From assembly GCA_037447655.1 (NCBI GenBank), contig JBBHKE010003089.1, positions 126,253 to 177,931 on the forward strand: a DNA stretch of 51,679 bases, read 5' to 3'. A program made the translations under genes and the position numbers. Shown here one piece after another: positions 20,598 through 45,637 of this stretch. Every line of letters begins with the position of its first letter. Positions within the stretch are counted from its first letter, which is position 1. This stretch comes from Zygnema cylindricum (lineage: Eukaryota; Streptophyta; Zygnematophyceae; Zygnematales; Zygnemataceae). Under the pieces are notes generated by a model that did no database searches, was not told the origin of the DNA, and saw nothing but the letters and a program-made list of their open reading frames with translations.

Positions 20598-21601
20598 TGT
20601 TGAAATAACTAGTTTTTGGGTATTTTCTAGGTCTAAATATATTAGCGAAAAACAAAAAAGAAAAATGGAGGCAACCTGCCTTCATCTCTTCTCCCTAGCC
20701 CCCCATACTTGTTAGAGTCACTGAAGGAGAGAGAGAGTGATGGAGCCATGGCTGCCTCAGCTCCATAAGCAGAACTAAAGAGTGTCTTAAGTCACTCTCA
20801 ACAAAAAGTTGAGTCCGGCAGGACTGAACCTCTGACCGGTAGAGCGGCGCGTAGCCGTTAGCTCTAACCAGTCTGTCGTAGAAATCCGTTAAGATATATA
20901 AGGTTTGATATGTATTAAACTATTGTATAGGACTGAAACCGAATAACTAAAATATGAACGAAAGAACATAGAACAAGTTGAAGTTTAGTGCGGACGTCAT
21001 TTCGCACGAAACAAATGAATCGGACATTTGTTTCGACGGCCGACATTCAATGTCAGATTTTAATCCGGCGGCACACATCACTGCCGAGATCGCGGAATGG
21101 TCACTTTGGCGTTTATGGACGTAGCATGACCTGGCGCCACGTGAAGGGATAACATTTGGTCGCAGAATTCTAGGGAACATTCGGACGAGTGGAAGGGAGA
21201 CATGCGTCCACTCAGAGGCCTTGTCGTACACACGCCATACACAAAGGACATCGGCGGTAGTACCTTTCTATACTTTACACTCATATGATTGGTTCGTACT
21301 TCAATAGATAGGGGTTGTGAGAAGGGTTTAGGACTTAGGAAAATCTGGTAGGTAGTCACCTCTCACTAAGAGAGCTTTGTATAAAATTGGCATTTTTGCC
21401 AGATCATAACTTATCGGCTGGTTGGCCGTTTTCAATGATTCTTTTTGCTACAGACTCAGGGGAGTCTACGCTACACAAAGGTGTAATCAGACTCTCCGTT
21501 TGCCTTCTAGGGCAGCAGTGGTTGTGGCTTGAAGTGGGTTAGTTAAAATCTATCTAGAGGCTTCCTGAATTCTGTAGTCCAAAGGAGGACACAAAATTGC
21601 A
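20598..21601 (+). repeat. 5' LTR of element A
   Basis: About 1004 bp, TGTTGAAATAAC...AATTGCA. Shares with the other LTRs an early TATTTTCTAGGTCTAAAT block, a CT/GA-rich hairpin around CCATGGCT, an antisense tRNA-like segment (20812-20885), a GTAC cluster with GATTGGT (21225-21300) and a TATAAAA at about 21371. Confidence 0.88.
20812..20885 (-). other. tRNA-like Pol III module in LTR A (antisense)
   Basis: Read on the minus strand: A-box-like CTGGTTAGAGCTAACGGC, B-box-like GGTTCAGTCC (one G short of consensus GGTTCGANTCC), then a TTTTT run just downstream. It corresponds to the better-preserved copy in LTR F5. Confidence 0.65.
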
Positions 21602-21616
21602 AATAATGGGCCCACC
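21602..21616 (+). other. Primer-binding site of A (degenerate)
   Basis: AATAATGGGCCCACC immediately after the LTR end TTGCA. It differs at three positions from GGTTATGGGCCCACC, the complement of the initiator tRNA-Met anticodon arm. It includes the gag ATG (21606). Confidence 0.7.
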
Positions 21617-22704
21617 CTCTAGGGTGACCACTTTCAATGGATCAGGGTTCATCTATTGGGAAGCCATGATGATGGGGGCTTTGTGCGAAAAACGACACTG
21701 GGGTATCGTCAGTGGACAAGTGAAACATCCACCTTCGGGAACTCCACCAAGATTTGGAGGAGTAAGGTTTCTTGCAGAAACGAGTGCTTCAGCGGAGGGG
21801 GCAGACGATGTGGATAGTTGTGTCCTAAAAGGGGAAAGGGAAGGAGACACCCCTCACTCCTATTGCCACTGCACCAAGAGCGGCGGTTGTGAAGACCGTG
21901 GAAAACGTTACTCAAATGTTGGAAGACGTAAACATGGCTGCCAAGAACTTCATTCTAAGGCACCTCACTCAAGCTTTGGCCACCCCTCACCTTCATATTT
22001 ACAAGGCCGAGGAGTTGTGGGTGAGTTTGTTGGGGATTTATAAAGCTAGTACTATTCAGGAGCTCCAGTTGGCTGAGCAAAAGCTAGTGAGTTACACTTA
22101 CAAAGGAGGAAAGATGTTAGATTATTATAATGATCTTTCTTGTTTGTATATGGAGATGGAAAGTGCCAAGTGGACAAGTACAATGAAGATGAAAGTTAAC
22201 ACTCTCATCATGAACTTACCAGACAAGTACGAGAACATAGTGTACCGAGTACAGGAAATGCCTGAGAGTTCATGGAAGTGGAATATAGTGGTCCGGATGA
22301 TACTTGTGCAGGAAAACACAATGGAGATTAGGAGAGGAGGAAAGAGCATTCAAGCTCTAGCTCTAGGAGGGGACCGATGGGGGAAGGATCCGAAGAAACC
22401 ATATAAAGGGGAAAGAGATCACTTTGGAGGACCGAGGCCCCCAAAGGTCCTTTGTCATTTTTGCAAAAAGCCAGGACACTTTATCGCGGATTGTGTCAAG
22501 CTGTCTGAGCTGAGGCTCCAACAGAACAGTGGAGGGGGTTCTTCCGGAGGGAAGATAAAGGCACTTGTGGTCACAAAGGTGACAGGAGAAACCGAGGATG
22601 GGTCCTTTGAGAAGGATGGGGAGCTTCTTCTTGACGAGAGTCTGGAGGAGAAAGAGATCCCTTGGAGACAAAAATGTGCCTTTGGAGCAATTTGGGAAGC
22701 TCCA
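21606..22704 (+). pseudogene. gag of element A (frameshifted)
   Basis: Copia Gag, the capsid and nucleocapsid precursor. It starts MGPPSRVTTFNGSGFIYWEA inside the primer site, shifts frame at about 21860, then continues through the capsid domain (MAAKNFILRHLTQAL...LPDKYENIV). The zinc knuckle CHFCKKPGHFIADC (CX2CX4HX4C, about 22452-22493) follows. It ends with QKCAFGAIWEAP and a TAG (22705-22707) that separates it in frame from the protease. Confidence 0.85.
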
Positions 22705-22707
22705 TAG

Positions 22708-23800
22708 GAAGGATGGATCATCGACTCAGGTGCATCCATGCATATGTGTCGTGATAAGCAACTTTTCACTAAGCTAAGAAAGATCCCTACTATAGAGATA
22801 GAGTATGGGGATGGGAGAGTAGTTACTATAGATCTAGTGGGGTTAGTAGATCTGAAAGTCTTAGTGGAGGGTAAGACTTCTATACTTACATTCTCATATG
22901 TACTCTACATTCCTCAACTAAGTAAAAATCTTGTCTCTACGTCTGTGTTAGATGACAAGGAGTTTGATACCTTCACTAGAAATGGAGTCTTTACAGCTAA
23001 GTATGGGGATGAAGTCTACTTCACGGCACTTAACGGTAGCCAAGGCATGTTTAGGCTTAGCCTGAGTAATGAAAAGAAGAATGCTTATTATGTTGGTGTT
23101 CCAAAATTGATGATTTGGCATAAGCAATTGGTGCATGTGCATTTTGATATGTTGAGGGAAATGAAGAAGCTTAGTGTAGTAGAAGACATTCAGTTTGGTG
23201 ATAATAAAATGGTGGATGATTGTTGTGGATGTGCTCAAGGAAAAGCTCACAAACTTCTTTTTCCCAAAGTCGCCACATATTGGGGGGAAAAGGTACTAGA
23301 TCTAGTCCACACAGATATCTGGGGACCTGCAAGAGTACCTTTGGTTGGAGGGAATACGTTTATGTTAACAATAACCAATGATTGGTCTAGGTACTTTAAA
23401 GTCTACTTCGTAAAAACAAAGTGTGAAACACCAACTTACTTCAAAGAATATAAAGTCTGGAGTGAGAAGTTGCATGGAACCCCTATTAAGAGAATAAGAA
23501 GTGATAATGGGGGGGAATATACCTCTAACCAATTTGAGGAATACTTGAGAGATGAGAGAGTTGAGCACAAGAAAAATGTACCATATAACCCCGAACAAAA
23601 TGGGTTAGCTCAGAGATTTAATTGAACACTACGATATAGTGTATGTAGTATGTTGGATGATACGAAAATAAGTAAGAGATTTTGGGCAAAGCCATGAACT
23701 GTGCATACTACATTAAGAATAGAGTCCTTACCTCAGCCGTCAAGGGAATGACACCTTATGAGAGATGGTTTGGAAGGAAAACTGATATCTAACACTTTAA
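22708..23800 (+). pseudogene. Protease-integrase part of pol of element A (truncated)
   Basis: In the same frame as gag after a single TAG: aspartic protease WIIDSGASMHMC (22711-22746), then LSKNLVSTSVLDDKEF, the gag-pre-integrase domain IWHKQLVHVHFDM (about 23110-23150) and zinc-binding CCGCAQGKAHKLLFP. Integrase HTDIWGPARVP and catalytic DNGGEYTSNQF follow. A stop after LAQRFN, frameshifts, and truncation at 23800 by insertion of B complete the damage. Confidence 0.87.
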
Positions 23801-44580: not shown

Positions 44581-44618
44581 CCACCATGGCTGCCTCCTTA
44601 GCAGACAAGGTCAAGACG

Positions 44619-44864
44619 AAAGAGAGAGAGAGAGAGAGAGAGAGAGAGAGAGAGAGAGAGAGAGAGAGAGAGAGATGAGAGAGAGAGAGAGAGAGAGAGA
44701 GAGAGAGAGAGAGAGAGAGGAGAGAGAGAGAGAGAGAAGAGAGAGAGAGAGAGAGAGAGAGAAGAGAGAGAGAGAGAGAGAGAGAGAGAGAGAGAGAGAG
44801 AGAGAGAGAGAGAGAGAGAGAAGAGAGAGAGAGAGAGAGAGAGAGAGAGAGAGAGAGAGAGAGA
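44619..44864. repeat. (GA)n microsatellite, about 245 bp, in LTR G
   Basis: Nearly pure GA with rare phase breaks. It is an expansion of the shorter GA run present at the same place in the other LTRs. Confidence 0.95.
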
Positions 44865-44889
44865 TAGTAGTATTAACAAAATTATATGA

Positions 44890-44975
44890 CCCATGTTGGA
44901 TTTGAACCTAGTACCTACAAGATGTTTTACCTGCGGCAAAGACGTGCGCCTTATCCATTAAGACTTAACGAGGTT
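44890..44975 (-). other. tRNA-like Pol III module in LTR G (antisense)
   Basis: Minus strand: TTAATGGATAAGGCGCACGT resembles the D-arm of tRNA-Arg. B-box-like GGTTCAAATCC (plus 44898-44908, one change from consensus). TTTT downstream. Confidence 0.7.
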
Positions 44976-45637
44976 TCATGTGTTGGGTGTGATTTGCATT
45001 TGAAGATAGTACCAATCTACATTCTCCATTTAACGCGTTACATAACGAAACGACATTGAATTTGAACGGATGCGATTACTTGTCTTTTTCCCATCAAACT
45101 GCTCACAATAGAGCCGAAACACCAGAGTGGACATTTGGCCGTTTGTGAGCTAATGTCGGTGGATGACATGTGGCAAGCCATGAGTGGACAGCAGACATTA
45201 CGGGGAGAAAGACTACAGCTCAAGAACTAACAAGCGTTAGCGGAACAGCCATGCCGTACCATGACCGTACAAGAAGTACAGCGACACCAGTACCTTCTTG
45301 TACCTTCCAGTCTTGTGATTGGTTAGGTACAGAAGTAGTAGGAGGTTGAGAGAGGGATTTAGGACTTAGCCATTTTTTGAGGCTCCTCTCTCTGAGAGAC
45401 CTTTTCTATTTATAGGCCATCTTTGGCCAACCATAACTTAATGCTCAAGGGAGCAATTTCAGCGATTCTTTTTGCTGGGGACTCGAGGAGTCCATGCTAC
45501 ACAAGGGTGTAGTCGGTCAAAGTTTTTGCTTGCAAGGGTGGCACTTATTCAGTGGGAAAGACAAAAGGGAAAATATTATCCTAGAGGCTTCATATAAGGT
45601 GGACATTTCGCGGACCAATGGAGGTCACATAATTACA

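Follow-up and report, generated by a model that had tools for sequence, protein, structure and literature searches.

The window analysed here is a stretch of 51,679 nucleotides (nt) from the zygnematophycean alga Zygnema cylindricum (contig JBBHKE010003089.1, positions 126,253 to 177,931), in which several copia retrotransposons lie nested within each other between positions 20598 and 45640. Eight long terminal repeats (LTRs) of this region, namely A, B, F, the 3' and 5' LTRs of D, G, C and H, are homologous over their length, and every one of them (8/8) harbours a tRNA-gene-like unit oriented antisense to the element, ~200-290 nt into the LTR. The unit consists of an A-box-like motif, a B-box-like motif and a run of T, the latter occurring in all units except unit 2 of the D 5' LTR, and both D LTRs possess a second complete unit. 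Its anatomy is recognizable, its position and orientation are fixed, and its key letters are retained across the representatives of the different families. With a probability of about one half, the LTRs carry antisense type 2 RNA polymerase III (Pol III) promoter units in their U3 region, which perhaps keep U3 open; the A box, B box, spacing and terminator typical of such units all appear to be present, the A box being weak in A/C. The initial annotation of this DNA had already reported an antisense unit at a fixed position in all eight LTRs, two tandem units in the D LTRs and two best cases at 27839 and 44341; these are borne out, TGGTCTAATGG and GGTTCGAGTCC being confirmed at the two positions. 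The 20-30 nt which it had placed between the B box and the T run are to be shortened to 13-18 nt in 64/69 LTR heads.

The unit was followed through the 352.8-Mb genome assembly. LTR heads came from two sources, a pattern search with the D A box itself and a search by LTR similarity, from which 20 listed copies each of C, G and D were taken. By the pattern route, 4/8 first loci fell within these LTRs (2 via the A box and 2 via the LTR 3' end) and a second round fetched 16 more places, plus those first 4 again; D copies obtained in this way are biased towards having the motif, in contrast to the D copies found by LTR similarity. Rows L003, L006, L007 and L008, respectively contained in L042, L039, L040 and L041, were left out, as were heads with a profile start >60 or end <345, which removes some partial LTRs and H. 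The unit region occurs in 60/60 fetched C, G and D copies, with mutated boxes in some of them, so that its presence holds genome-wide and the absence from most copies that would have refuted the initial annotation is not observed; the B box GGTTCGAGTCC is unaltered in 19/20 fetched young C copies. In 65/69 heads, TTTT begins no more than 30 nt after the B box, one of these heads showing a first TTTT at 3 nt and a further one at 18 nt; in 4/69, including unit 2 of the D 5' LTR of the window, it is missing from this interval. As a background, TTTT occurs in 24% of 34-nt windows of those heads. In one D copy (L109), rearrangement has altered unit 2 beyond the A box, and another B-box-like sequence and T run now stand there.

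Among 11 family representatives, whose LTR heads display a mean pairwise column identity of 48%, only 15/431 head columns are invariant. Six of these 15 columns belong to the 11-nt B box, at its canonical letters, two to the T run and two to the A box. The invariant B-box letters presumably correspond to G53, T55, C56, A58, T60 and C61 in the tRNA numbering. When H is omitted, the invariant columns increase to 59, many of them located at the LTR start and in a neighbouring hairpin, and the LTR therefore has other constrained parts. The mean identity of A box, B box and T4 taken together is matched by 269/5000 blocks drawn within the unit (334/5000 without H). In D unit 1, the identity amounts to 0.81 for the A box, 0.84 for the B box and 0.98 for T4, as against 0.54 between the boxes (0/5000 within-unit permutations), and in D unit 2 to 0.80, 0.89 and 0.85, as against 0.61 (148/5000).

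With respect to chance, a composite A-box/B-box/T4 pattern, written after the alignment had been viewed, occurs in 49/70 antisense heads, in 0/70 heads read in the sense orientation, in 0/2800 dinucleotide shuffles and in 18/22 D heads. Outside these LTRs it was found in 1/510 genomic 430-nt pieces, apart from fragments in L009. A cruder consensus score, applied to single LTRs and whose best A-box choice is not always that of the unit, is equalled by ≤2/200 shuffles in 6/8 LTRs and is not significant in A (71/200) and G (61/200). The two E LTRs, which were initially annotated as devoid of the unit, indeed give no antisense signal by this score (47/200 and 180/200 shuffles). The anticipated superiority over shuffled sequence thus stands for the composite pattern and, by the consensus score, for six of the eight LTRs, and fails by the latter in A and G. 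Chance resemblance, with the conserved motifs serving some other LTR function, is very improbable as an explanation: the two non-significant LTRs and the equally conserved LTR parts such as the hairpin speak for it, and the co-occurrence of B-box letters, spacing and T run, together with the second complete unit of D, against it.

The likeness to tRNA genes does not extend to the tRNA itself. ARAGORN detected 0 tRNA in the window, and Rfam gave none there with the gathering cut-off and no tRNA match in 20401-46200 or in 40 fetched copies with E relaxed to 10, so that the Infernal-type check proposed in the initial annotation yielded no tRNA. RNAalifold found 0 consensus pairs in an alignment of 42 main-type units, from which L047 and L078 were omitted and in which 9/22 D unit-2 copies were included, and 0 in 21 D unit-1 copies, from which L109 was excluded. 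Both a cloverleaf tRNA identity, which none of the three programs supports, and a conserved RNA fold of the unit were rejected. Owing to this lack of cloverleaf, Rfam tRNA match and consensus fold, the feature that has been kept is apparently a DNA promoter pattern and not an RNA shape. The global similarity to seven host tRNAs is nevertheless matched by ≤3/200 simple shuffles in 8/12 units; the F and G units are no longer like host tRNAs overall.

The host Pol III genes supply a standard for the upstream and termination signals. Thirty-one host tRNA genes contain 93% AT at about -35 to -21, and TTTAAATA-like or TTTATTAATTTTT stretches, read by eye, occur at a similar upstream distance in the LTR units and in D unit 1. 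T4 is not enriched after the 3' end of 30 host tRNA genes (37% vs 32% background), which argues against host tRNA-type genes stopping at T4. Of the host 5S genes, 6/6 fetched (of 15 listed, partly related) have a run of at least four T no more than 14 nt from the 3' end, so that T runs may well serve the Pol III of this host. Set against these 5S loci (L148-L153), the tRNA loci L009-L038 appear to terminate in an unusual way.

In D and G, the stretch between the boxes diverges 2 to almost 4 times faster than the surrounding LTR, and the boxes diverge less. Across 21 D copies (without L109), the divergence along unit 1 is 0.335 from +1 to +7, 0.195 in the A box, 0.426 in the interior, 0.166 in the B box, then 0.229, and 0.024 in the T run; the corresponding values in unit 2 are 0.111, 0.193, 0.275, 0.098, 0.310 and 0.108, for 0.115 outside both units. 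In the seven of ten D elements with an alignable gag, a comparison in which a minimum of 15 columns leaves the B-box rows without a value, the interiors diverge by 0.503 (unit 1) and 0.333 (unit 2), the gag third positions by 0.131 and the rest of the LTR head by 0.149. Across 21 G copies, the divergence is 0.12-0.22 from +1 to just before the T run, 0.069 in T4 and 0.093 outside, with an interior excess of ~2.4-fold over the outside. A blind scan for the fastest segment retrieved alignment positions 160-230 in G, where the A box occupies 148-164 and T4 begins at 233; in D (again without L109) it retrieved 155-182, between the boxes of unit 1, then 268-366, which spans from before +1 of unit 2 (281) to the first T of its run. 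The trend is reversed in 12 A/C lineages (interior 0.205 vs outside 0.276) and the scan gave no unit-centred segment in the young C family, both of which count against the generality of a fast interior. The core more variable than its flanks described in the initial annotation is thus found in D and G and not in the A/C lineages.

The LTR pairs of single insertions indicate where this divergence arose. Differences in the unit versus elsewhere amount to 44/573 vs 135/1936 in G (6 pairs), 12/445 vs 22/1701 in C (5 pairs) and, in D (3 pairs), 17/237 vs 70/1438 for unit 1 and 18/271 vs 69/1404 for unit 2. Single pairs scatter, e.g., C2056 (17/96 vs 27/291) and C1714 (0/79 vs 12/480); in the C584 pair (L146 and L147), with 8/89 vs 5/341, the unit looks as if it had been exchanged or changed faster. 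Because the excess within pairs is small and uneven, the divergence seems to have built up mainly between source lineages, through diversification or exchange, and not by decay in place. Transcription-associated mutagenesis (Thornlow et al. 2018, as cited in PMC8113476) was considered as the cause of the fast interior and is unsupported, the LTR pairs showing little excess. The histories of gag and LTR may differ, as between C2354 and C1665 (0.07 at gag third positions, 0.15 in the LTR head).

Taken as a promoter, the unit would operate as follows. One antisense type 2 Pol III promoter unit per LTR (two in D) would lie in U3, comprising an A box at ~+8, then a B box closely followed by TTTT, with AT-rich DNA upstream near -30. 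TFIIIC, TFIIIB and Pol III would bind to it, and an RNA of ~80-95 nt, stopping at TTTT, would be made. Selection would then act on recruitment or transcription itself, for the RNA structure is not conserved and the interior sequence of D and G hardly so. Most likely, U3 would thereby stay open and the Pol II promoter would be protected against silent chromatin at the flanks. That the boxes have outlasted the sequence between them in some families suggests a working second promoter.

Several observations weigh against such a promoter. The mean identity of A box, B box and T4 across families is matched by 52/5000 random head blocks with H and by 446/5000 without it. The D boxes are not special compared to the whole D head, the mean identity of which is 0.80 (1610/5000 and 1645/5000). 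Both D A boxes and the B box of unit 1 exceed the divergence outside the units and only the B box of unit 2 falls below it (0.195, 0.193, 0.166 and 0.098 vs 0.115); in the seven D elements, the A boxes reach 0.210 and 0.260 vs 0.149 for the rest of the head, and in G, the A and B boxes reach 0.122 and 0.167 vs 0.093 outside. Within families, the boxes are thus kept only relative to the interior and not relative to the LTR outside the unit. The similarity to host tRNAs is not significant in B, F, G (Table 1) and unit 2 of the D 5' LTR (10/200), and for B, G and the latter unit the sense strand equals or beats the antisense strand. To these may be added the weak A boxes of A/C and the T4 that is not enriched after host tRNA genes. 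Since within D and G the boxes change at the pace of the LTR outside the unit or faster, the promoter reading loses some weight and a relic gains slightly: a tRNA-derived short interspersed nuclear element (SINE) or a tRNA pseudogene would have inserted antisense in an ancestral LTR and would since have been inherited unused. Such an origin without function, which the initial annotation had also envisaged as a relic of a SINE insertion, would account for the host-tRNA similarity of 8/12 units, the missing cloverleaf and the loss of overall tRNA likeness in F and G. It remains unlikely, being weakened by the B-box letters and part of T4 that are identical in 11 representatives whose heads average 48% identity, and by the D interiors that reach 0.43 and 0.28 compared to 0.10-0.20 for the boxes and 0.02-0.11 for the T runs.

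Other readings leave the boxes a function. TFIIIC might bind and yet leave the unit untranscribed, as happens at extra-TFIIIC sites, with the B box in an architectural or boundary role; in favour, the B box is the best-kept part of the unit across families, T4 aside, and the A boxes of A/C look weak, but T4 and parts of the A box are likewise kept and in G and D unit 2 the fast segment comes to an end at the T run, which makes this reading improbable. It is hardly more plausible to assume that the antisense RNA, complementary to the U3 of the 3' LTR, acts on the genomic RNA of the element, e.g., in copy-number control by way of a rapidly evolving specificity segment. The excess of the D interiors over gag third positions and head, the ~2.4-fold excess in G and its occurrence mainly between source lineages would agree with such an action; the reversed A/C lineages, the absence of a conserved fold and the possibly different histories of gag and LTR speak against it. 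By analogy, and with similarly small probability, a Pol III antisense RNA gene in U3 with its boxes and stop kept, and whose D and G interiors diversify between source lineages faster than the surrounding LTR (and, in D, than gag third positions), might be the retrotransposon counterpart of plasmid antisense copy-number control, the interior setting which relatives regulate each other. Finally, the units might be landing pads, the copia integrase targeting Pol III units so that the elements nest in each other's LTRs, as Ty1 and Ty3 target Pol III units (PMC5911963). Nested insertions do occur in the window and D sits ~210 nt upstream of +1 of the F unit, but other insertions (B in A, F in B) sit in coding parts, and this reading is scarcely credible.

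tRNA-derived SINEs possess a head with A and B boxes devoid of cloverleaf, which the LTR units resemble in both respects, but here every LTR examined has the unit at the equivalent place and the unit travels with the LTR (free-standing copies were not looked for). The tRNA-gene insulators and extra-TFIIIC sites offer a possible functional parallel as TFIIIC-dependent chromatin boundaries, although here the predicted unit is carried antisense in a retrotransposon U3. Cassandra, as described in the introduction of Kojima 2024 (PMC10886601), carries 5S rRNA in the LTRs of terminal-repeat retrotransposons in miniature (TRIMs) and thus likewise bears a Pol III promoter in its LTRs; that promoter is 5S-derived, whereas no 5S sequence was detected here, Rfam reporting no 5S hit across the window with the gathering cut-off and none in 20401-46200 even when E was relaxed to 10. 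The closest parallel is Helenus (TRIMp3), for which the same article reports tRNA-like sequences with A and B boxes inside the LTRs, the boxes being kept although most of these sequences are not expected to yield a functional tRNA. It also reports an anticodon-loop primer-binding site (PBS), including that of tRNA-iMet, in many fungal Helenus elements, proposes SINE capture as the origin of Helenus, and considers TRIMp3 and its autonomous partner unlikely to share long LTR stretches. The A and B boxes borne by the LTRs are common to both. Helenus elements are, as described there, TRIMs of 311-1263 bp without mobilization proteins, in contrast to the coding elements of ~6.4 kb or, in D, ~4.4 kb found here; their unit would be the promoter of the element itself and hence sense, an orientation inferred from PMC10886601, the main text of which does not contain the word "antisense", whereas the present unit is antisense with 0/70 sense composites. 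D differs from Helenus additionally by its two units. Since the small non-coding size and the presumed sense orientation are both missing, the elements were not filed as Helenus, and may rather be regarded as LTR elements with captured Pol III promoters, a variant apart from it. Full-size LTR elements with a tRNA-like unit in antisense were not encountered among the open-licence PubMed Central literature matches listed (at most 20 per search). The opinion of the initial annotation that nothing similar had been described thus yields to Helenus as regards tRNA-like LTRs, and holds in so far as those, as reported, are TRIMs of 311-1263 bp.

The elements belong to Ty1/copia by their gag/pol content. 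Six of the eight given open reading frames of the window match Retrotran_gag_2, Pol_BBD, gag_pre-integrs, rve or RVT_2 above the curated cut-off; of the remaining two, one has a match only below it and the other none. A single copia integrase search returned 68 proteins, the majority without informative name. The LTRs measure 1.0-1.26 kb. The C LTR has at least 40 full-length genomic copies at 95-100% identity, that of the window counted, the G LTR at least 40 at 87-91% besides that of the window, and the D LTR at least 40 at 84-95% besides the query copy of the window, all of them lower bounds as only the best candidates were scored. C and G LTR pairs stand ~5.4 kb apart (5 C and 6 G pairs among the matches listed), which corresponds to the ~6.4-kb elements, and three D pairs enclose ~1.9 kb, D elements thus measuring ~4.4 kb. 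D (26869-31314) encodes gag, lacks most of pol, and its LTRs recur genome-wide; gag-like DNA was found in 7/10 D copies fetched for gag, that of the window included, and was not alignable in 3/10. Around LTR position 783-839, A, B, C, F, G and H have a TATA-like motif of a putative sense Pol II promoter (TACAAA in B, F and G), ~500 nt from the antisense unit, and D shows TATAAAG, read by eye. A pattern search located the PBS GGTTATGGGCCCA after LTRs C and D 5' (about 43520 and 30050) and an altered form in A and B; the pattern was not found after the other four LTRs, three of which are 3', solo or truncated. GGTTATGGGCCCA presumably resembles the half tRNA-iMet primer site of Drosophila copia. 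The use of a half tRNA-iMet PBS by Copia is mentioned in PMC10886601.

A long imperfect hairpin occurs between the unit and the LTR start in 28 aligned copies (28/32, excluding L047, L056, L078 and the D-type copy L040). RNAalifold proposes 18 pairs in the antisense orientation, 9 of them with compensatory changes; single-copy z-scores range from -1.2 to -6.9, and the tip is conserved around GTGACTRCRACAAGT. Between the hairpin and the LTR start, a T run follows in 63/69 heads (median 4 nt; no background estimate). The antisense hairpin folds better in 27/28 and 79/89 copies. A strand preference was nevertheless rejected, the consensus reaching -2.3 for antisense (18 pairs) vs -3.03 for sense (7 pairs), and G-U vs A-C mismatches in strand-neutral helices numbering 53 to 65, so no strand is claimed. 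In H, the LTR 5' end of which has been lost to a GA repeat (44598-44880), this repeat sits where other LTRs have the CT/GA-rich arm of the hairpin, which suggests that it expanded from that arm.

Table 1. Coordinates of LTRs, antisense units and hairpins in the window.
Feature	Position	Strand	Basis
A-type copia 5' LTR	20598..21590	+	homology to other LTRs; copia gag and integrase downstream
B-type LTR, inserted in element A	23801..24836	+	LTR homology
F LTR, first part (solo LTR, split by D)	26364..26866	+	LTR homology
F LTR, second part	31315..31848	+	LTR homology
D 3' LTR	26869..28115	-	LTR homology
D 5' LTR	30063..31314	-	LTR homology
G LTR (3' LTR)	39053..40120	-	LTR homology
C LTR	43536..44578	-	LTR homology; genomic copies 95-100% identical
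H LTR, 5' end truncated, GA repeats	44580..45640	+	LTR homology
Unit in LTR A, +1 to T run	20799..20886	-	LTR alignment; host-tRNA similarity 0/200 shuffles
Unit in LTR B	23992..24088	-	LTR alignment; host-tRNA similarity weak, 13/200
Unit in LTR F	26558..26654	-	LTR alignment; host-tRNA similarity not significant, 61/200
D 3' LTR unit 1 (extra unit)	27680..27756	+	D alignment
D 3' LTR unit 2 (aligned with the unit of other LTRs)	27832..27921	+	LTR alignment
D 5' LTR unit 1	30874..30953	+	D alignment
D 5' LTR unit 2, T run interrupted (TTTGT)	31029..31118	+	D alignment
Unit in LTR G	39810..39905	+	LTR alignment; host-tRNA similarity not significant, 41/200
Unit in LTR C	44285..44373	+	B box GGTTCGAGTCC
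Unit in LTR H, A box like host tRNA-Arg TCT	44879..44970	-	LTR alignment; host-tRNA comparison
Hairpin	44412-44512, 39962-40055, 27965-28058, 26434-26526, 23859-23951, 20667-20760	not assigned	RNAalifold

If the antisense units are indeed Pol III promoters, LTR-borne promoters of this type would not be restricted to miniature elements dependent on them for RNA of their own; full-size Pol II retrotransposons could also retain one for another role, in antisense, and would have done so in many families of a single genome, one of these families having two copies. With kept boxes and a changing interior, the purpose of the promoter would be directly testable by small-RNA sequencing and by chromatin immunoprecipitation of TFIIIC and Pol III.

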